Source: Lacinutrix venerupis
GTDB taxonomy: Bacteria; Bacteroidota; Bacteroidia; Flavobacteriales; Flavobacteriaceae
Length of the DNA stretch: 64,000 nucleotides
Assembly: GCF_003663945.1 (NCBI RefSeq)
Contig: NZ_RCCH01000003.1
Location: forward strand, 1-64,000
Reading direction: 5' to 3'
The notes under the pieces were generated by a model. That model searched no databases and was not told the DNA's origin. It saw nothing but the letters and a program-made list of their open reading frames with translations. Both the position numbers and the translations under genes were made by a program. Shown in pieces: positions 40,916-49,712 of the stretch; position 1 is the first letter of the stretch; each line of letters begins with the position of its first letter.

Positions 40916-42022
40916 TTACTGTAATAAGCTATATACAAATTCTGGGTAACCACGCTCTCCCGCTTCATTAAATAAAGCTAAAAACTTAAGTTTATATAGG
41001 TTTCCATCTGTATCGCTAACAATGTAAAATACATTATCTTTTAAAGATGGAGAAGAATTTGGTCCTCCGCTATTTCTCCAGCTACTTCCAATACTTCTTT
41101 GGTCTAAAGAAAATAATGTATTGTCAATATCTGCTAGAGTAAAGTTATCATAAGATAAATCTGTTTCTACTTCAGTATCTATCATGTAAACTTTTGTATC
41201 TTCTTTAATATTGCTTAAAACAAAATCAGAATAAAAATAAGGTCCATAACTATCTGCACCAATAAAAACTTCATCAGTAAACGTTGTAAAATTTAAATCC
41301 CAATCTTCTTTTGCTGGTTCTATAACAATTTCACTATTAGTATTAAAACTAAAAAAAGTATAGTTGTAATTAGCATTTTTAAAAATAGTAACTTCTTGGT
41401 GAGTTGTAGCATCTAAATCTGCATATTGTAAAATGTAGTTTGCTCCATCTTGAAGCACTCTAATTTTTTTCCAACCTCTTGGGTCATCAGAAGTATCAAT
41501 ACTACCTGTAGCTGGAGTTTCTGTACCAACTTCTTTCCCTAAGTTTACTAAATAAACATTGTTATTGCTATCTGTAGCAGAAATTTCTGAAATAGCAGTA
41601 GCATTTAAATCTCCAGAAGGGTCATCAACATATTGCATACTAACTTCATTATAAGTATTTGTTCTTACCATAGGTTGTAAATCCTGTATTTCTTGGTCGC
41701 TAGAAGTTACTGCATCAATATCTGTTGCAGTTAATTGTGCAGCAGCCATAGCTATAGATCCATTAATTACAACTCTAAATTCTGTACCAGAGTAAAAGCC
41801 TAAATCCCAAGAATCGCGTTGCACACTTGTTGTTGTATTTGTGCTTAAATCTACATATACTTGGTTTTGTTGGTTTGGTCCTCCTACAGATGGTGCTATT
41901 GCAGCTCCTTCAATAATAATATTTAATGGTCCTGCAACAGTATTGTTATCATCATCACTACTACAATTAGTAAATACTAATGCAGTTAAGCAAAGTGCTA
42001 GAGTAAAAAATTTGTTTTTCAT
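40916..42022 (-). CDS. hmuY: HmuY family haem-binding lipoprotein
   Basis: 368 aa. The lipoprotein signal MKNKFFTLALCLTALVFTNC has its lipobox at FTNC, followed by an Asp/Ser/Asn-rich export signal. The HmuY-type beta domain shows RDSWDLGFYSGTEFRVVINGS early and EDWDLNFTTFTDE late, two related half-repeats. HmuY of Porphyromonas gingivalis captures haem from host proteins and hands it to the TonB-dependent receptor HmuR. Here the receptor gene lies directly upstream on the same strand (11 bp gap), the canonical hmuR-hmuY order. The axial haem ligands (paired His in P. gingivalis) cannot be assigned from sequence, and many marine homologues use other residues, so the ligand may be haem or another metal complex. 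Confidence 0.85.
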   Translation of the reverse strand: MKNKFFTLALCLTALVFTNCSSDDDNNTVAGPLNIIIEGAAIAPSVGGPNQQNQVYVDLSTNTTTSVQRDSWDLGFYSGTEFRVVINGSIAMAAAQLTATDIDAVTSSDQEIQDLQPMVRTNTYNEVSMQYVDDPSGDLNATAISEISATDSNNNVYLVNLGKEVGTETPATGSIDTSDDPRGWKKIRVLQDGANYILQYADLDATTHQEVTIFKNANYNYTFFSFNTNSEIVIEPAKEDWDLNFTTFTDEVFIGADSYGPYFYSDFVLSNIKEDTKVYMIDTEVETDLSYDNFTLADIDNTLFSLDQRSIGSSWRNSGGPNSSPSLKDNVFYIVSDTDGNLYKLKFLALFNEAGERGYPEFVYSLLQ

Positions 42023-42033
42023 GTTATTGTTGT

Positions 42034-44175
42034 TTAAAAGTTTAAATTATATAATAGTTTTAGGTAAAAAGATCGTCCGTAGCCTAATAAAAGACTGCTA
42101 TTACTAGCGCTGTGTGCTCCAGTTGTTGAAGCACCATTAATATCTACACTTGTAACATCTAATAAGTTTCTAATTCCTGCTGTAGCTTGAAGTTTATTGT
42201 TAAAAAAAGATTTCTTAACAGAAGCATCCATCCAGCTATAAGCATTGGTATTGTATTTTTTAAAGGTGCTGTTTCCGTTAGCATCGCTAACTTCTGCAAT
42301 GTATTTTTGTTGTTTTCCGTTGTGCTTAAAAAGTACAGTTAAAGCAGTGTCCCATTTTTCTATTAGATAGCTTGCACTTGTATTAAGCTGGAAAGCATAT
42401 AAAAAGTCGTTTTCGGCATTAACTTCGTCATTGATAACTCTAGAAATACCTTGTACGGTTGCACCTAAATTAAACGTCCAATTATTTTGTTTTATAACGT
42501 TTTCAGATGTGAAACCAATTAACCTATAGGCATCAATATTTATGTATTGGTATTGTAAAGGTGTTGGATTAACAATGGCTAGTTCAATTTTATCTTCTAA
42601 ATTTATATAGCTTAGTTTTAAATTGTTAACCATAGACGTGTTGTTAAACCAACTACGTTTTTTAAAGTTTAAAAATGCTGAAAAACCAGCTTCTGGATTT
42701 AAATTTTCATTACCTCTAACATCGTGATTAGAATCTACAAAGTAGTAGTATAATTCTTCGAAGTTTGGCGTTCTGTACGATGAGCCAATACTAGCGCGAA
42801 GCTCGTAACCTTTATTGAATAAATATCTGGCACTAAACGACCCTAATAGTTTTGATTTAAATTTAGAATTATATTCGTATCTAAGTCCTGGACGCAGTGA
42901 GAGTTTGTTGGTTAATTCAAGTTCAGAAGAAGAGAATACTGCAAAATTATTCTGTTTTAATTTTTTATCTTGTTGTGTAACATCTCCAGATGCTTGCGTA
43001 TCAAAACCAGTTATAAACCTAGTTTCGTAACCTAATTGATAATTAAAATTATCACTGTTAGAAAGATTATTTATAGTTCCTTTAGAGAAAAAGACATCGC
43101 TAGATTGGTATTCCTCATCGGTTTCATCAGATTTTTCTTTAGTAACTATATAGTAGTTATATTCGTTTAAATCTCTTTTTTGCGTTTGGTAAGATAATGA
43201 AGCATTATAATTAGCACCAGAATTTAAGCGCCCACTTAAATTTAAATTATTTACAAATCTATTTGTAGTATAAACTCTATCGGTAGCAGATGGATTACTA
43301 GTTTGGTTAGCAACATCTATATTAGGCCTTACTGCAGCATCATAAAAATTTAGCTCTTCGTTAAAATATTCAAACTTGTAAAATAGCTTAAAATTATCTG
43401 TATTATAATTTAGGTTTGCTTTAGTGGTTAGTTGTGTTTTTGGTAACCAATCATAACCGCGTAAACCATCATTTAAATAGTAATCTTCACCTTGTCTTTC
43501 GTTAAAAAAACCAGCAAATTGATTACGGTTAAAACCAATTTTAGCAGCCCATTTTTCGTTAAAATTATGACCAATATTTAATGCTTGTATATGTCTTCCT
43601 TCATCAAACCAAGCGTATTCATCACTTACTGTTTCTTCTTGTACAAAGGTTTGTATTTGCCAATCGTGATCAATATTTTTTTTAGTTATTATATTAATAA
43701 CACCAGATACTGCATTGGCTCCATAATCTACTCCCATTGCGCCTTCTACAATTTCTATACGCTCTATGTCATCTAGATTTATTTGTGTTAAATCTATATT
43801 ATTACCTAATCCATTATCACTAACTAAAGGAATATTATCTAATAGAATATTAAAGTATTGTGCATCTAAACCAAAAAATGAAATGGTCGAGCGACCAGTA
43901 GACGCACTTGGTATAATGTTTAAATTTAGGTTAAAGTTTAGTAAGTCTGCCAGATTATTTGCAGCTTGCTGATCTATTTTTTTTCTATCAATAACAATAA
44001 CGTTATGTACAGATTTTTTAATAGACTGTGGGTTGTATTGTCCAGTAATAATAACTTCTTCAAGATCTGTTACGCGTGTAGAATCTACAATTGCAGTATT
44101 TTTTTGTTGCGCAAATAAGCTCGCAACTAAAAAAAAAGAAAAATAAACCGTTAAATAGTTTTTATTTAGAATCAT
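42034..44175 (-). CDS. TonB-dependent outer-membrane receptor (HmuR-like)
   Basis: 713 aa. The signal peptide ends near ...VASLFAQ. The plug domain (about 35-160) has LEEVIITGQYNPQSIKKSVHNVIVI, the TonB-box region, and ERIEIVEGAMGVDYGANAVSGVINIITK. A 22-strand barrel follows and ends in aromatic YLKLLYNLNF. A YRTP motif at 467-470, His484 and NLNPE resemble the FRAP-His-NPNL signature of haem receptors, though close variants occur in other TonB receptors. It imports a ligand across the outer membrane with energy from TonB/ExbBD. First gene of the leftward arm, followed by the HmuY gene, and divergent from the DUF6607 operon across 92 bp that hold a promoter and an inverted repeat. Confidence 0.93.
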   Translation of the reverse strand: MILNKNYLTVYFSFFLVASLFAQQKNTAIVDSTRVTDLEEVIITGQYNPQSIKKSVHNVIVIDRKKIDQQAANNLADLLNFNLNLNIIPSASTGRSTISFFGLDAQYFNILLDNIPLVSDNGLGNNIDLTQINLDDIERIEIVEGAMGVDYGANAVSGVINIITKKNIDHDWQIQTFVQEETVSDEYAWFDEGRHIQALNIGHNFNEKWAAKIGFNRNQFAGFFNERQGEDYYLNDGLRGYDWLPKTQLTTKANLNYNTDNFKLFYKFEYFNEELNFYDAAVRPNIDVANQTSNPSATDRVYTTNRFVNNLNLSGRLNSGANYNASLSYQTQKRDLNEYNYYIVTKEKSDETDEEYQSSDVFFSKGTINNLSNSDNFNYQLGYETRFITGFDTQASGDVTQQDKKLKQNNFAVFSSSELELTNKLSLRPGLRYEYNSKFKSKLLGSFSARYLFNKGYELRASIGSSYRTPNFEELYYYFVDSNHDVRGNENLNPEAGFSAFLNFKKRSWFNNTSMVNNLKLSYINLEDKIELAIVNPTPLQYQYINIDAYRLIGFTSENVIKQNNWTFNLGATVQGISRVINDEVNAENDFLYAFQLNTSASYLIEKWDTALTVLFKHNGKQQKYIAEVSDANGNSTFKKYNTNAYSWMDASVKKSFFNNKLQATAGIRNLLDVTSVDINGASTTGAHSASNSSLLLGYGRSFYLKLLYNLNF

Positions 44176-44193
44176 TCTTGATTAAATTCGCTG

Positions 44194-44201
44194 CAAATAT
44201 A
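44194..44201 (-). promoter_or_regulatory. -7 box of the TonB receptor gene
   Basis: A perfect TATATTTG on the minus strand (44201-44194), 18 bases before the ATG at 44175. The 25-bp inverted repeat begins three bases upstream of it, so a bound repressor would block the promoter. Confidence 0.55.
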
Positions 44202-44204
44202 TAT

Positions 44205-44229
44205 CTTATTTTAATTCAGTCTAAATAAG
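44205..44229. promoter_or_regulatory. Inverted-repeat operator candidate in the haem locus
   Basis: Perfect 7-bp arms CTTATTT (44205-44211) and AAATAAG (44223-44229) around an 11-bp AT-rich centre, in the 92-bp region between the divergent TonB-receptor and DUF6607 genes. It overlaps the spacer and -33 region of the leftward promoter. Position, size and AT-richness fit an iron-responsive (Fur-type) operator, but the match to the Fur consensus is only partial. Confidence 0.5.
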
Positions 44230-44267
44230 AATGACGTTTTTTACAATAAAATTATAAACATCTAAAA

Positions 44268-45176
44268 ATGAAAAGATTAACAGTTTTGCCATTATTATTA
44301 ATAGTGTTTTCGCTATCTCTAACAGCTCAAAGCAAGAAGAAAAAAGACCAAGAAGCTATAAAGAGCATGTGTGGTTGTTATGAGGTGACGTTTAATTTCA
44401 CCGAAACATTTAATTACAGTCAAGATTCTTTATATAAACCTTCAGACACTAAGATTGCTTCAGGTTTAGAATGGGCACAATTAGTAGAAGATGATGATAA
44501 TAAAATTTCAATTCAGCATCTATTACAAGTAGGTAGTCCAGATGCACCACATATTGTTAAGCATTGGAGACAAGATTGGTTATTTGAGAATACAGATTTT
44601 TATATGTTTAATGGCGACAATAAATGGACGTACCAATCTAAGCCTAAAAAAGAAGTTAAAAACCAATGGACGCAAAAAGTATATCAAGTAGACGATAGTC
44701 CTCGTTATGAAGGTTCTGCAACATGGGTGCATGTAGATGGTAAAAGTTTTTGGGAAAATACAACAACAGCACCATTGCCAAGACGTGAGTACACAAAAAG
44801 AAGCGATTATAATGTAACTGTAAGAGGAAATAGACATGAGATTACTAAATACGGTTGGTTACATGACCAGGATAACGAAAAAGTAATTAGAGAAACAGGA
44901 AAAGAAGACGTAATTTTGGCAAAAGAAAAAGGATATAATACTTATGTTAAAGTAGACGATAGTCGTTGTAAAGCATCACAAGATTGGTGGAAAAATAGTC
45001 AAGAAAAATGGGCTAAAGTACGTGCCAAATGGGATGAGGTTTTTGCAAGAAATCAAAACCTAGAATTACACGCTAAAGTAGATAATAAAGTATTATTTAA
45101 ATACTTATTTGATGACGAAAATTACGCAACAAAAGAACAAATAAACCCATTAATTGAAAGCTTTATAGTAAAATAA
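44268..45176 (+). CDS. DUF6607 family secreted protein
   Basis: 302 aa. The signal peptide MKRLTVLPLLLIVFSLSLTAQ is followed by a basic stretch (SKKKKDQEA). The body has CGCYEVTFNFTETF, a QHLLQVG and a HIVKHWRQDWLFE motif, many conserved Trp residues, and SRCKASQDWWKNSQEKWAKVRAKWDEVF near the end. I assign it to DUF6607, a family with no known function. The gene opens the rightward arm of the haem locus and its stop (45174-45176) is directly followed by the next ATG (45177), so translation is coupled. Being exported and co-regulated with haem receptor genes suggests a periplasmic or surface role in haem or iron handling (inference). Confidence 0.8.
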   Translation: MKRLTVLPLLLIVFSLSLTAQSKKKKDQEAIKSMCGCYEVTFNFTETFNYSQDSLYKPSDTKIASGLEWAQLVEDDDNKISIQHLLQVGSPDAPHIVKHWRQDWLFENTDFYMFNGDNKWTYQSKPKKEVKNQWTQKVYQVDDSPRYEGSATWVHVDGKSFWENTTTAPLPRREYTKRSDYNVTVRGNRHEITKYGWLHDQDNEKVIRETGKEDVILAKEKGYNTYVKVDDSRCKASQDWWKNSQEKWAKVRAKWDEVFARNQNLELHAKVDNKVLFKYLFDDENYATKEQINPLIESFIVK

Positions 45177-46640
45177 ATGAAAAATTTAATCAGAGTAGCT
45201 ATACTTTTTATAAGTATACAAATTACAGCACAAGACAACGCATTATTAAACAGAAAATTTTGGAGCCCAACAGTTTCTATTGAAACCGTAAAAAAGGCAA
45301 TTGCAGAAGGTAATAATCCATCGCAATTAAACAATAATAACTTCGATCCATTGGTGTATGCAATATTGCAATCTGCACCAAACGACGTTTTAAAATTTAT
45401 GTTATCTATAGAAGGAAACGATGTGAATAAATTAACACATGACGGACGTACGTATATCTTTTGGGCAGCCTATGCCGGTAACGATACTATAATGCAGTAC
45501 CTTATTAGCAAAGGCGCAAAAACAGATATTTTAGACGACCATGGTTATACTATATTAAATTTCGCAGCAAACGCAGGACAAGCCAATACAGAGGTTTATA
45601 ATATTTGTTTAGAAAATGGAGCCAATTTAAAAAACGATGTTAATCACAATGGAGCTAATGCTTTATTATTAGCAGCAACAAGTAACTTTGAATTGGTAGA
45701 GTATTTTCAAGATAAAGGCTTAGACATTAAGAGTACAGATAAAGATGGTAACGGTATATTTAATTACGTTGCAAAAAACGGAAACATTGAAGTTTTAAAA
45801 AGTTTAGAAGCAAAAGGCTTAAAAGGAAACGACCAAGCATTTATTTTTGCAAGCCAAGGTACACGAGGTAACACAAACGGTATAGAGGTTTACGAGTATT
45901 TAGAAAGTATTGGTTTAAACCCTAATACAAGAACTAGTGATGAGGTTTCACCATTACATAATGTTGCTACAAGAAATAAAGATCTTAAAGTAATAAACTA
46001 CTTTATTGAAAGAGGAAATAATGTAAATACTGCCGATAAAAATGGAAACACACCATTTTTAAATGCAGTGAGAAGTAACTCGGTTGAGGTAATAGAAAGC
46101 CTTTTAAGCCAAGTTAAAAATATTGAACAAGCCAATAAAAAAGGAGAAACAGCTTTAATGCTTGCTGTACAAAACAACAGTGCAGAAGTTGTAGAGTTAT
46201 TATTATCTAAGGACGCTAATATTGAAGTAAAAGACTCAAAAGGAAATAATTTAGCGTATTACTTAATAGAATCTTATAATCCAAGAAACGAGAAAGGTTT
46301 TGAAAATAAATTACAACTATTACAAAAAAGTGGGTTAGAATTTACAAAACCTCAAGATAATGGTAATACATTAATACATTTAGCTTTAGATAAAAACAAC
46401 GTTAAATTTTTAAAGCAAATAGCACAATTTGAAGTTGATGTAAATGCGGTTAATAAAGACGGCTATACAGCACTACATTTAGCAGCAATGAAAGCTACAA
46501 ACGACAAATTATTAAAGCATTTATTAGCGATTGGAGCCAAAAAAGATGCTAAAACAACTTTTGATGAAACAGCTTTTGATTTAGCATCAGAAAACGAAAT
46601 GTTATCTCAAAAAGACATCTCAATAAACTTTTTAAAATAA
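45177..46640 (+). CDS. Secreted ankyrin-repeat protein
   Basis: 487 aa. The signal peptide is MKNLIRVAILFISIQITAQ. About 12 ankyrin repeats cover residues 25-480; clear ones are LTHDGRTYIFWAAYAGNDTIMQYLISKGA, DHGYTILNFAANAG, TSDEVSPLHNVATRNKDLKVINYF, KNGNTPFLNAVRSNSVEVIESLL, KKGETALMLAVQNNSAEVVELLL and KDGYTALHLAAMKA. Periplasmic ankyrin proteins such as Pseudomonas AnkB are linked to protection of haem enzymes. It lies immediately after DUF6607 with no gap and 10 bp before DUF2271, so it is a member of the haem-locus operon. A scaffold or haem-protein chaperone role is inferred. Confidence 0.88.
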   Translation: MKNLIRVAILFISIQITAQDNALLNRKFWSPTVSIETVKKAIAEGNNPSQLNNNNFDPLVYAILQSAPNDVLKFMLSIEGNDVNKLTHDGRTYIFWAAYAGNDTIMQYLISKGAKTDILDDHGYTILNFAANAGQANTEVYNICLENGANLKNDVNHNGANALLLAATSNFELVEYFQDKGLDIKSTDKDGNGIFNYVAKNGNIEVLKSLEAKGLKGNDQAFIFASQGTRGNTNGIEVYEYLESIGLNPNTRTSDEVSPLHNVATRNKDLKVINYFIERGNNVNTADKNGNTPFLNAVRSNSVEVIESLLSQVKNIEQANKKGETALMLAVQNNSAEVVELLLSKDANIEVKDSKGNNLAYYLIESYNPRNEKGFENKLQLLQKSGLEFTKPQDNGNTLIHLALDKNNVKFLKQIAQFEVDVNAVNKDGYTALHLAAMKATNDKLLKHLLAIGAKKDAKTTFDETAFDLASENEMLSQKDISINFLK

Positions 46641-46650
46641 ATATTACAAA

Positions 46651-47136
46651 ATGAAAAATTTTAAACTAATTTTTAGCCTAGCTGTACTTAGTCTGGTTAT
46701 GTTTTCTTTTTCAAAAATTGCGCCTTCAACTAAATACAAGTGCATGGTGCAAATGACTAATTATACTGGTGAAGGCGCATATATTGCAATTTCATTAATT
46801 AATCCAGAAGGTGAGTACGAAAAAACACTTTACGTGCAAGGTGATGATGAAGAATGGTATCATGACATTACACAATGGTGGAAATTTCAAGGTAAAGTAC
46901 GCACAAATATTGATGCTTTAACAGGAGCAACAATTTCTGGTGGCGAGCGTGCTATTAGCGTTATAGAAATAGAAGATTCTAAAATAGATTCTGGTTACAG
47001 TATACGTTTTGAAACAGCAGTAGAGGATCAAGAATATTACACAAAAGACGTTGAGTTTTTACTAACATCAGAGAGTGTAAAAAGCAAAAAGGAAGGCACA
47101 GGATTTATACGTTATATACGTTTAATGCCTAACTAA
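46651..47136 (+). CDS. DUF2271 protein with flavinylation motif
   Basis: 161 aa. The N-terminus (about 1-24) is a signal peptide or anchor, so the protein is periplasmic. The DUF2271 pattern is YIAISLINPEGEYEKTLYV, WYHDITQWWKF and the motif DALTGATISGG. DALTGAT (Asp88 to Thr94) matches the Dxx(S/T)GA(T/S) sequence in which the flavin transferase ApbE attaches FMN to the final Thr/Ser (as in NqrC and RnfG), so Thr94 is the predicted FMN site. DUF2271 proteins have been reported among ApbE-linked flavinylated proteins beside PepSY reductases, exactly the arrangement here: the reductase gene begins 10 bp downstream. No apbE gene lies in the window. Confidence 0.85.
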   Translation: MKNFKLIFSLAVLSLVMFSFSKIAPSTKYKCMVQMTNYTGEGAYIAISLINPEGEYEKTLYVQGDDEEWYHDITQWWKFQGKVRTNIDALTGATISGGERAISVIEIEDSKIDSGYSIRFETAVEDQEYYTKDVEFLLTSESVKSKKEGTGFIRYIRLMPN

Positions 47137-47146
47137 ACACGTATCT

Positions 47147-49339
47147 ATGATCATTTCTATTTGGAGGTATAGTCACTTAGCATTAGCTATAACTTCTTTT
47201 GTATTTGTTTTTTTAGCAACAGTTACAGGAATTGTGTTGGCTTTTCAACCAATTTCAGAACAAATACAACCTTTTAAAATAGATGGTATAGAGCATTTAA
47301 ATGTAGAGCAAACAGTTGCTACATTTAAAAAACAATATCCAGAAATTATTACAATAGAAGTAGATGCAAATCAATTTGTGTCTGCTTCTGTAATAACTAA
47401 AGATGGTAAATCTTTAAACGGTTATTTTAATCCTAAAAACGCTTCTTTTTTAGGCGAAAAGCCCGAAGTTTCAAACCTCTTTAAGTTTACAACCAATTTA
47501 CACCGCTCCTTGTTTTTAAAAGGCGTTGGTCGTTTTTTTGTAGGCTTAGGTTCTTTTTTACTATTCTTAATTGCCGTTACAGGTTCTATTTTAATTATTA
47601 AGCGCCAAAGCGGCATTAAAAAGTTTTTTGCAAAAGTTGTAAATGAAGATTTTGCCCAATATTGGCATGTTATTTTAGGTAGACTATCTTTAATACCAAT
47701 ACTAATAATCACGCTTACAGGTGTGTATTTATCTTTATTAAAGTTTGATGTAATTGAAGAAAAAAAAGAAAAACACACTATAGATTTTCAAACTACAGCC
47801 GAAGTAGAAATCAAGCCTGAAACTTCAGTGTTTAAAACCACTACTTTAGATCATGTTGAGACTTTAGAGTTTCCGTTTTCTACAGATGAAGAAGATTATT
47901 TTACTCTAAAATTAAAAAATAAAGAACTTCTTGTACACCAATATTCTGGTCAAGTTTTAAGCGAAGTAAAAAACCCAATAGTAACTTTTTTATCTAATTG
48001 GAGTTTAGTTTTACACACGGGAAAAGGTAGTATACTGTGGTCTATCATACTATTAATTGCGTGTATAAACATTTTGTTTTTTATCTATTCTGGTTTTAAA
48101 ATGACTATAGATAGACGTAAAAAAACAGTATTCCCAAAAAATAAATTCACTAAGGATAATGCAGATATTGTTATTCTTGTAGGATCTGAAACTGGTAGCA
48201 CTTACCATTTAGCAACAGCCTTTTTTAAAGCTTTGTTAGATAAAGGTAATCGTGTTTTTATTTCAGATTTAAACAGTTATACCAGTTATAAAAGTGCTTC
48301 GCAATTAATTGTATTAACATCAACTTATGGTGAAGGTGAAGCACCAATAAATGCTAAAAAGTTTTTAACGTTATTAAACACTGTAAAACAAGAGCGCTTA
48401 ATACATTATGCCGTTGTAGGATTTGGGTCTCTACAATACCCAGAATATTGTAAATACGCACAATTAGTAGATGCTAATTTACAAGTGCATAAGCAGTTTC
48501 AGCCCAATATGGAGTTGTTTAAAATTCATAACCAATCTGAAACCGAATTTAAAAATTGGGCTACAAAATGGAATAATATTGTTGCATCTGGTTTAGATAT
48601 AGCAAACTTAAAAGTATCTAATAAACCAAGAAAAGAGCAGTTATTTACGGTTGTAAATAAAACAGAAACTAATATAGATAACACTTTTTTAATTACTTTA
48701 AAACCTAATAAAAAACTTAAGTTTAAGTCTGGAGATTTACTATCTGTAATTCCTAAAAAGGATAAAATAGAGCGTTTATATTCTATTGGAAAAATAGATG
48801 GTAATATTGTTATAAGTGTAAAAAAACATGAGTTTGGTGTATGCTCAAATTATTTTTATAATTTAAAAAAGAATGCACAAATAAAAGCTGTAATTAACAA
48901 GAACTCAAATTTTAATGTGCCTAAAAAAGCACAAAGTTTTATTTTTATTTCAAACGGTACAGGAATTGGCCCTTTTTTAGGTATGATACAGCAGTATAAA
49001 CCTATTACAAAGCATCTTTTTTGGGGAGGCAGAACACAACAGTCGTTAAAACTTTATAAAAACACTATAGATAGTAGTTTAAAAAATAACACATTAACTA
49101 GTTTTAATGTGGCTTTATCTCAAGAAACTAGTGATAAAGTTTATGTGCAAGATATTCTTGAAAAACAATATACAATTATTGCAGATGTTTTAAATACAAA
49201 AGGTGTAATAATGATTTGTGGTTCTATTGCTATGCAAAACCAAGTGTTAGAAGTATTAAATAAAATTACAACTGAAAAATTACAGCAACCATTAAGTGTT
49301 TTCGAGCAGAACAAACAAATATTAACCGACTGTTATTAA
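47147..49339 (+). CDS. PepSY-TM / flavodoxin / FAD-NAD(P)H reductase fusion
   Basis: 730 aa. The N-terminal PepSY-associated transmembrane part has helices near 9-31, 127-150, 175-197 and 292-315, with the WRYSHLALAI motif at the start and periplasmic segments between. A cytosolic flavodoxin domain begins at GSETGST (346-352). The FAD-binding domain has RLYSI (543-547) and a NAD(P)-binding part with GTGIGPF (604-610) and FWGGR, as in sulfite reductase alpha and cytochrome P450 reductases. The protein can pass electrons from cytosolic NAD(P)H through FAD and FMN, then across the membrane through PepSY helix haem or His residues. The adjacent flavinylated DUF2271 protein is the probable periplasmic acceptor. 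The final target (haem iron or ferric iron) is inferred. Confidence 0.88.
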   Translation: MIISIWRYSHLALAITSFVFVFLATVTGIVLAFQPISEQIQPFKIDGIEHLNVEQTVATFKKQYPEIITIEVDANQFVSASVITKDGKSLNGYFNPKNASFLGEKPEVSNLFKFTTNLHRSLFLKGVGRFFVGLGSFLLFLIAVTGSILIIKRQSGIKKFFAKVVNEDFAQYWHVILGRLSLIPILIITLTGVYLSLLKFDVIEEKKEKHTIDFQTTAEVEIKPETSVFKTTTLDHVETLEFPFSTDEEDYFTLKLKNKELLVHQYSGQVLSEVKNPIVTFLSNWSLVLHTGKGSILWSIILLIACINILFFIYSGFKMTIDRRKKTVFPKNKFTKDNADIVILVGSETGSTYHLATAFFKALLDKGNRVFISDLNSYTSYKSASQLIVLTSTYGEGEAPINAKKFLTLLNTVKQERLIHYAVVGFGSLQYPEYCKYAQLVDANLQVHKQFQPNMELFKIHNQSETEFKNWATKWNNIVASGLDIANLKVSNKPRKEQLFTVVNKTETNIDNTFLITLKPNKKLKFKSGDLLSVIPKKDKIERLYSIGKIDGNIVISVKKHEFGVCSNYFYNLKKNAQIKAVINKNSNFNVPKKAQSFIFISNGTGIGPFLGMIQQYKPITKHLFWGGRTQQSLKLYKNTIDSSLKNNTLTSFNVALSQETSDKVYVQDILEKQYTIIADVLNTKGVIMICGSIAMQNQVLEVLNKITTEKLQQPLSVFEQNKQILTDCY

Positions 49340-49355
49340 TCTATAAAACAATATT

Positions 49356-49712
49356 ATGTGTAAAGGAATACAAGCGATTAATAAAACATCTAAAGGCGAA
49401 TTAAATTTTTGTGGAAACTGCCAGCGGTTTCATTTAGAATTTAATAATATTTATTTTGAGTTTACGCCTGTAGAGTATAAGCAGTTTAGAAAATATGTAC
49501 TTTTAATTGAATCAGAATTTTGGGAAAGAAAGTACTCTAACATTAATGTTAGACGTAGAATTCCAATTCCAACCTTACAAGAAAATTTAGTTTTAATGTT
49601 TAATAGGCAGGAAGTAGCAGAGCTTAAAGCATTAATTACTAATAAAAAGGAAGCTGTTTTTAATACAATTTTAAATGTAGATGATATAGATTATACGTTT
49701 ATTATTAATTAA
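49356..49712 (+). CDS. DUF6686 family small protein
   Basis: 118 aa, soluble. It has Cys residues near the start (MCKGIQ) and a CGNCQRFHLEFNNIYFEF core, then EFWERKYSNINVRRRIPIPTLQENLVLMFNRQEV. I assign it to DUF6686, function unknown. A Cys pair CxxC could bind metal or be redox active. The gene follows the PepSY reductase by 16 bp and is the last gene of the haem-locus arm. Its Cys-bearing start hints at a metal-binding role in iron handling (inference). Confidence 0.72.
   Translation: MCKGIQAINKTSKGELNFCGNCQRFHLEFNNIYFEFTPVEYKQFRKYVLLIESEFWERKYSNINVRRRIPIPTLQENLVLMFNRQEVAELKALITNKKEAVFNTILNVDDIDYTFIIN

Follow-up and report, generated by a model that had tools for sequence, protein, structure and literature searches.

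Introduction

Flavinylation systems in which a PepSY membrane protein is paired with a DUF2271 protein have been tied to iron reduction, and an NAD-binding domain was counted in 1077 PepSY-like genes (Meheust et al. 2021, PMC8238504). The flavinylation of DUF2271, its pairing with PepSY proteins and the links to iron are thus already in print (PMC8238504, PMC11334425, PMC7190382, PMC12004947). The DUF2271 protein of another species is flavinylated by its own ApbE at the recognition motif, where a change of the threonine abolished flavinylation (PMC8238504). Among PepSY reductases, FoxB holds two haems through four histidines (PMC11334425).

Haem-uptake loci of Bacteroidota provide the second point of comparison. 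The haemophore RhuH of Riemerella anatipestifer has been solved (8xjc); His96 is its haem ligand, Arg143, Tyr144, Arg170, Arg183 and Gln198 contact the propionates, rhuH and rhuR-rhuA have a common bidirectional promoter with a Fur box, and the protein is reported to be exported from the cell in vesicles (PMC11967795). In Flavobacterium psychrophilum, the HmuY-type hfp operon lies within a 19-kb iron-responsive region together with putative 'transmembrane electron transfer' proteins, as described in a paper that cites Meheust et al. (PMC9331221). The Bacteroides de-chelatase HmuS releases iron from haem with a need for electrons from NADH, and the HmuS paper states that the reduction route for haem iron is not known (PMC12583661). 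The operon described below bears on how Bacteroidota extract iron from imported haem and on the source of the electrons.

Results

Organization of the locus

The window, a stretch of 64,000 nucleotides from Lacinutrix venerupis, contains the following features.

40916..42022, minus strand: HmuY-family lipoprotein with two HmuY stretches (PF14064, E 5.2e-30; lipoprotein signal judged by eye)
42034..44175, minus strand: TonB-dependent receptor with plug and barrel domains, predicted from its setting to be a haem receptor
44176..44267, no strand: divergent intergenic region of 92 bp between the receptor and DUF6607 genes
44206..44228, no strand: predicted Fur-box-like operator TTATTTTAATTCAGTCTAAATAA, from a genome pattern search
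44268..45176, plus strand: DUF6607 protein, RhuH-type haemophore homologue (PF20311; match to 8xjc)
45177..46640, plus strand: ankyrin-repeat protein (Ank families) whose N-terminus resembles a signal peptide; constant partner of DUF2271
46651..47136, plus strand: DUF2271 protein of 161 aa, predicted covalent FMN carrier (PF10029, E 7.1e-41)
46912..46932, plus strand: codons of D88-A-L-T-G-A-T94, with Thr94 the predicted FMN site (motif and alignment)
47147..49339, plus strand: reductase of 730 aa with a PepSY two-haem membrane part and flavodoxin, FAD and NADP(H) domains (Pfam)
49356..49712, plus strand: DUF6686 protein (PF20391), possible last gene of uncertain membership

Signal peptides were assigned by eye. 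The coordinates, strand and motif position reported in the initial annotation were all exact, as was the spacing of 10 bases between the DUF2271 and reductase genes. Coordinates and domains likewise confirmed that the HmuY and TonB receptor genes are divergent from the DUF2271/reductase unit, lying on the minus strand and reading away from the 92-bp gap. The extent of the transcription unit required revision. Its divergence stood, and its start had probably been placed too late; the closely spaced plus-strand series runs from DUF6607 through the ankyrin, DUF2271 and reductase genes to DUF6686, with DUF6607 the likely first gene and the ankyrin gene next.

Conservation was followed in 80 named loci, in 196 genomes of the order, from which 20 DUF2271 loci were fetched, and in a phylum-level sample. 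The 80 named loci were the nearest ones out of at least 578, a choice that favours near relatives; DUF6686 lies 3' of the reductase in 28 of them.

A haemophore homologue in a haem setting

The DUF6607 protein matches RhuH (8xjc) by sequence with an E-value of 1.6e-92, and a Foldseek search with its AlphaFold model (pLDDT 88.3) yielded a single strong match, to the same structure (E 3e-34, TM 0.84/0.91, 50% identity). His99 aligns with the haem ligand His96 of RhuH, while Arg146, Tyr147, Arg173, Arg186 and Gln201 align, in that order, with the propionate contacts listed above. Judged by these alignments, DUF6607 is homologous to the haemophore RhuH and retains the haem ligand. A literature search by the name DUF6607 found nothing, and the RhuH papers were reached through the fold match. 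The likeness to RhuH-RhuR-RhuA extends to the arrangement of a haemophore with its ligand histidine divergent from a TonB receptor over a Fur-box promoter (PMC11967795), predicted as such here. The difference is that an electron-transfer module lies 3' of the haemophore in the window, whereas neither 'reductase' nor 'operon' occurs in the available text of the RhuH report (PMC11967795).

On the other side of the gap, the HmuY assignment is clear (PF14064, 105.1 bits against a cut-off of 27, in two stretches), with no match among PDB sequences. By sequence, the receptor is a weak candidate for a haem receptor. It matches the NCBIfam TonB-hemin model with E 4.9e-25 and 88.1 bits against a cut-off of 316.85, and the TonB-B12 model more strongly (E 6.1e-29), again below the cut-off; its best PDB matches are the colicin I receptor and BtuB, with haem receptors weaker. 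HmuY lies within 5 kb of the DUF6607 gene in 27 of 32 cases among the 196 genomes of the order. With a threshold of 55 bits, HmuY occurs in at least 46 and a window-like receptor in at least 65 of the closest 80 loci, both counts being lower bounds since a similar-looking receptor and lipoprotein in one locus (L083) fall under that threshold. HmuY is encoded in 23 of the 33 DUF2271 genomes of the phylum sample and missing from the other 10. The haem neighbourhood claimed for the module was thus borne out by the locus survey as real and conserved among relatives, and it is reinforced by the homology of DUF6607 to RhuH. The hfp locus resembles it in having a TonB receptor and an HmuY-like haemophore near iron-responsive electron-transfer genes; it differs in that hfpR and hfpY are cotranscribed with a DoxX gene (PMC9331221).

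Candidates for the iron-release step were sought in the whole genome. Neither HmuS, by the CobN-family model PF02514, nor a heme oxygenase of the PF01126 fold was matched, and both were set aside as the release step; the absence of a CobN/HmuS-family match separates this genome from the Bacteroides HmuYRSTUV system. FeoB is present, and feoAB was found. In the phylum sample, CobN occurs in 3 of 33 DUF2271 genomes against 9 of 133 HmuY genomes, and the idea of a complementary distribution of CobN and DUF2271 was dropped as too entangled with ancestry and with B12 CobN.

The flavin site of DUF2271

The motif DALTGAT occupies residues 88-94 of the DUF2271 protein, and the pattern D..[ST]GA[ST] has no second occurrence in the window, where 69 stop-to-stop frames of 100 aa or more were scanned. 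DxxTGAT is present in 78 of the closest 80 loci and DxxTGET in the other 2; the nearest named DUF2271 protein, from Olleya sediminilitoris, is 93% identical. Across the order, [ST]GA[ST] is kept in 19 of 21 DUF2271 proteins, with TGET (L024) and VGET (L039) as exceptions, and Gly92 is invariant in all 21 rows of the alignment. The proposed ApbE recognition site is therefore supported by sequence, with an apbE gene in the genome. The longer D-x-x-T-G-A-T pattern fared less well in the same alignment and is only partly a family feature, because the 21 proteins are split at position 88 between Asp (11) and Ser (10). DUF2271 has no match among PDB sequences.

The genome yielded one DUF2271 match and one ApbE match (E 2.9e-82), the latter encoded on another contig beside an aldehyde dehydrogenase gene and so unlinked to the locus. 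A location of this gene at an NQR locus was considered and rejected, as Pfam gives aldehyde dehydrogenase, kynurenine-type genes and a nuclease there. In relatives, 11 of the 19 order-level loci that have the full module carry apbE immediately next to the reductase gene (cluster c3, one member of which was typed by Pfam), and an ApbE match adjoins the reductase in 9 of 12 further full-module loci. Of the traits of a PepSY/DUF2271 flavinylation system, the [ST]GA[ST] site, the adjacent PepSY protein and an ApbE in the genome are present, and we infer that FMN would be carried covalently on Thr94.

A two-haem membrane part joined to a diflavin reductase

Pfam places PepSY_TM (PF03929, E 5.4e-32), Flavodoxin_1 and NAD_binding_1 domains on the reductase. 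Its N-terminal part aligns with FoxB (7abw, E 2.9e-15), and His10, His119, His174 and His290 fall on FoxB histidines. The same four histidines are present in all 76 reductases taken from the closest 80 loci and in all 14 rows of a further alignment, three of which are stand-alone PepSY proteins. The AlphaFold model has a mean pLDDT of 85.4 and a pTM of 0.63, which leaves the placement of the domains uncertain. Residues 332-730 have the fold of a P450 reductase (Foldseek E ~1e-21; VIA Z 28-29), and as the VIA matches span only residues 333-730, the absence of FoxB from them is uninformative. The claimed combination of a PepSY membrane part with flavodoxin, FAD and NAD(P) domains is thus supported by sequence and can be given more precisely as a two-haem PepSY part that leads into an NADPH module resembling cytochrome P450 reductase.

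Four histidines and the PepSY membrane fold are held in common with FoxB (7abw) and the HiuB/VciB reductases. The window protein differs from these in that its membrane part continues into a diflavin NADPH reductase and that its partner is a predicted flavinylated carrier. Conversely, residues 332-730 resemble NADPH-cytochrome P450 reductase and the CysJ sulfite reductase flavoprotein, to which the window protein adds the membrane two-haem part. Kinship with P450 reductase points to NADPH rather than NADH as the cofactor. An electron line running, in the presumed direction, from NADPH to an FMN on DUF2271 is likely.

Evidence for iron control

The TTATTTTAATTCAGTCTAAATAA pattern is common to 55 of 59 divergent gaps between receptor and DUF6607 genes. 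A genome-wide search allowing up to 2 mismatches returned 8 matches at 7 places, with none for the reversed control. These places are the divergent gap itself, one 3 bp before feoA, one ahead of a DUF4856/imelysin gene run, two before TonB receptors, one before a small Cys-rich ORF and one at the start of a hemerythrin. With up to 3 mismatches, the operator precedes DUF6607 in 27 of the 30 order-level loci (control 2) and the ankyrin gene in 21 of 31 (control 0), the 31 regions including two (L040 and L182) that have haem genes upstream; the background at this stringency was 20 of 740 random stretches. TTATTTTAATTCAGTCTAAATAA and the Riemerella Fur box ATTTAGAATTATTCTAAAT have the half-site TCTAAAT in common (PMC5609570), and the operator is read here as a putative Fur box.

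Two separable modules and a constant ankyrin partner

The order DUF6607-ankyrin-DUF2271-reductase is found in 75 of the closest 80 loci. Three of the remainder have no DUF6607 in view, and two, from Capnocytophaga, keep the ankyrin and DUF2271 genes with this reductase not nearby. The ankyrin gene adjoins DUF2271 with a gap of at most 115 bp in all 80, and the DUF2271-reductase gap is at most 173 bp in all 75 of these loci in which it was measured. The gap between DUF6607 and the ankyrin gene does not exceed 158 bp in 63 of 75 loci; in the other 12 it is about 2.4 kb, and the insert is a TonB receptor.

At order level, the ankyrin-DUF2271-reductase set is present in 19 of 20 loci, one of them with an inserted methyltransferase ORF. 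The remaining locus is that of an additional DUF2271 copy in genome G133, which lies beside DUF6607, receptor and HmuY genes and has a VGET motif. DUF2271 occurs in 20 and DUF6607 in 32 of the 196 genomes, with both in 18, leaving 2 of the 20 DUF2271 genomes without DUF6607; Fisher values of 6e-15 in the order sample and 1e-5 in the phylum sample both ignore ancestry. As 18 genomes have both and only 3 of these 18 have them within 15 kb, with the genes apart in the other 15, the link between DUF6607 and DUF2271 is genomic, and physical in the Olleya-Winogradskyella-Tenacibaculum group, and the haemophore and reductase modules can occur apart.

Compared with the systems of Meheust et al., the locus has the same [ST]GA[ST] DUF2271 protein, PepSY membrane protein, NAD-binding domain and link to iron (PMC8238504). 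It differs in having a constant ankyrin partner and a haemophore gene first, and in the absence of apbE and DUF4198, both frequent and non-defining in PepSY/DUF2271 clusters, from the 8 locus proteins scanned. The terms 'ankyrin' and 'HmuY' are absent from the main text of that survey (PMC8238504). Placement in a haem locus had been offered as the new element, a claim weakened because PMC8238504 ties these systems to iron and PMC9331221 puts electron-transfer genes near hfp. What is new here is the common operon of known-type parts, with the haemophore first and ankyrin as constant partner, kept in many related bacteria. Outside subscription journals and supplements, a search found no literature that connects a flavinylated reductase with either the ankyrin protein or a RhuH/DUF6607 haemophore. 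DUF2271 systems thereby gain a constant, unstudied partner.

Proposed electron route and alternative explanations

The domains, motifs, gene order, common operator and genomic ApbE and FeoAB are established at the level of sequence. The reading we favour, and regard as reasonably probable, is that the locus is an iron-controlled unit for the acquisition of haem and ferric iron, in which the PepSY/DUF2271 flavinylation system reduces imported ferric compounds and feeds FeoAB. The TonB receptor and HmuY genes would face the RhuH-type haemophore gene across the Fur-box promoter. Electrons would pass from cytosolic NADPH through FAD to the FMN of the flavodoxin domain, traverse the inner membrane by way of two b-haems on His10, His119, His174 and His290, and reach an FMN that ApbE would have attached to Thr94 of DUF2271. 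In its reduced state, DUF2271 would then act on ferric compounds imported into the periplasm, haem by way of this locus and ferric siderophores in relatives, and the resulting ferrous iron would be taken up by FeoAB. The ankyrin protein probably serves as a docking scaffold. Since HmuS/CobN and PF01126 were not found and FeoAB is present, reductive iron release outside the cytoplasm would fill a gap. A Fur-controlled operon, as predicted, running from a haemophore homologue to a complete line from NADPH to the periplasm lets the idea be tested directly by genetics in a marine group of wide distribution.

That the module serves iron acquisition is very likely, and haem is probably among the ferric compounds reduced. 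The proposal that haem or ferric iron is the acceptor therefore stands as to iron; haem as the sole acceptor is unsupported, because the module also occurs apart from haem genes, beside other iron receptors. Haem as the physiological acceptor is possible, about even with ferric siderophores over all relatives and favoured in the arrangement of the window. A more specific version, which we consider doubtful, makes the ankyrin-DUF2271-reductase set a haem reductase of the periplasm that powers the freeing of iron from haem in Flavobacteriaceae without HmuS or a classical haem oxygenase, with the ankyrin protein docking the flavinylated DUF2271 onto the importer of haem. If true, it would supply the missing electron route from NADPH to imported haem. 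As RhuH is reportedly released in vesicles (PMC11967795), the haemophore might not come into contact with the reductase at all.

The strongest competitor, unlikely overall and still to be taken seriously, is a general ferric-siderophore reductase of the FoxB kind, for which adjacency to the haemophore reflects common iron control only. FoxB and Caulobacter HiuB are themselves siderophore reductases (PMC11334425, PMC12424826). A TonB receptor lies immediately 5' of the ankyrin gene in 14 of the closest 80 loci (the 12 inserts and 2 loci without DUF6607 in view), and the one that was searched (L112) has CntO, FoxA and FhuA as its best matches. In addition, a receptor family (c5) and a lipoprotein (c4) adjoin the module in five loci (L023, L024, L034, L035 and L178). 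Set against this, the haemophore gene is contiguous with the module or in the same run in 75 of the closest 80 loci, and domain, profile and PDB matches reveal no siderophore-type receptor in the window locus. The c4 lipoprotein had been considered as a relative of XusB, an idea abandoned as it has no Pfam match and no significant PDB match (E 0.68).

A respiratory or antioxidant line, in which DUF2271 would reduce some other periplasmic partner, for instance a peroxidase or a thiol system, and iron control would be secondary, appears improbable. Flavinylated proteins do serve many redox systems (PMC8238504) and no acceptor enzyme was identified within the operon, but the operator is common to feoAB, the imelysin operon and TonB receptors, and the neighbours are haem and iron-uptake genes. 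Least credible of all is a DUF2271 protein that works here as a plain binding protein without flavin, since the TGET and VGET variants (L024, L039 and 2 of the closest 80, the last with TGET) and the unlinked apbE of this genome are outweighed by a motif kept in the great majority of both samples and by the apbE genes that adjoin the module in 11 of 19 and 9 of 12 loci.

Variant arrangements of the module

Proteins of approximately 500 amino acids that match both DUF2271, the predicted FMN carrier, and the flavin transferase ApbE were detected in loci from other families of the class (L173:8681-10192, L174:9674-11191, L177:8739-10235 and L180:8654-10171), and these are apparent ApbE-DUF2271 fusions. 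In genome G133, a second DUF2271 copy (L039:9885-10376) adjoins DUF6607, the receptor and HmuY; VGET replaces its [ST]GA[ST] site, and flavinylation may have been lost in this copy.

Ankyrin and DUF2271 genes with the PepSY reductase absent from their vicinity were observed at L143:8483-10474 and, in a Capnocytophaga MAG, at L146:1504-5135. In the MAG, a ferrochelatase gene and a Flavodoxin_5 gene, the latter presumably HemG-like, lie immediately upstream of the pair, with TonB/HmuY genes residing approximately 4 kb downstream. A methyltransferase gene separates the DUF2271 and reductase genes at L026:9092-9778, and a ferritin-like gene immediately follows the reductase in a haem-locus arrangement in G074 (L040:12675-13205).

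Neighboring genes and related loci

A lipoprotein-like family of 424–460 amino acids (c4), with no match in Pfam and no significant match in PDB, is encoded beside a TonB receptor gene as a pair adjoining the module in L023 (5636-6910), L024, L034, L035 and L178. Genome G509 contains both systems: HmuY, TonB receptor and an HmuS-sized open reading frame (1473 amino acids) form a row (L169:5737-14364) approximately 17 kb from a divergent DUF2271 match on the same contig. Finally, elsewhere in the window genome (L195:2641-9368), a palindromic copy of the Fur-box-like operator precedes DUF4856, imelysin and TonB receptor genes, which likely constitute an iron-regulated operon.
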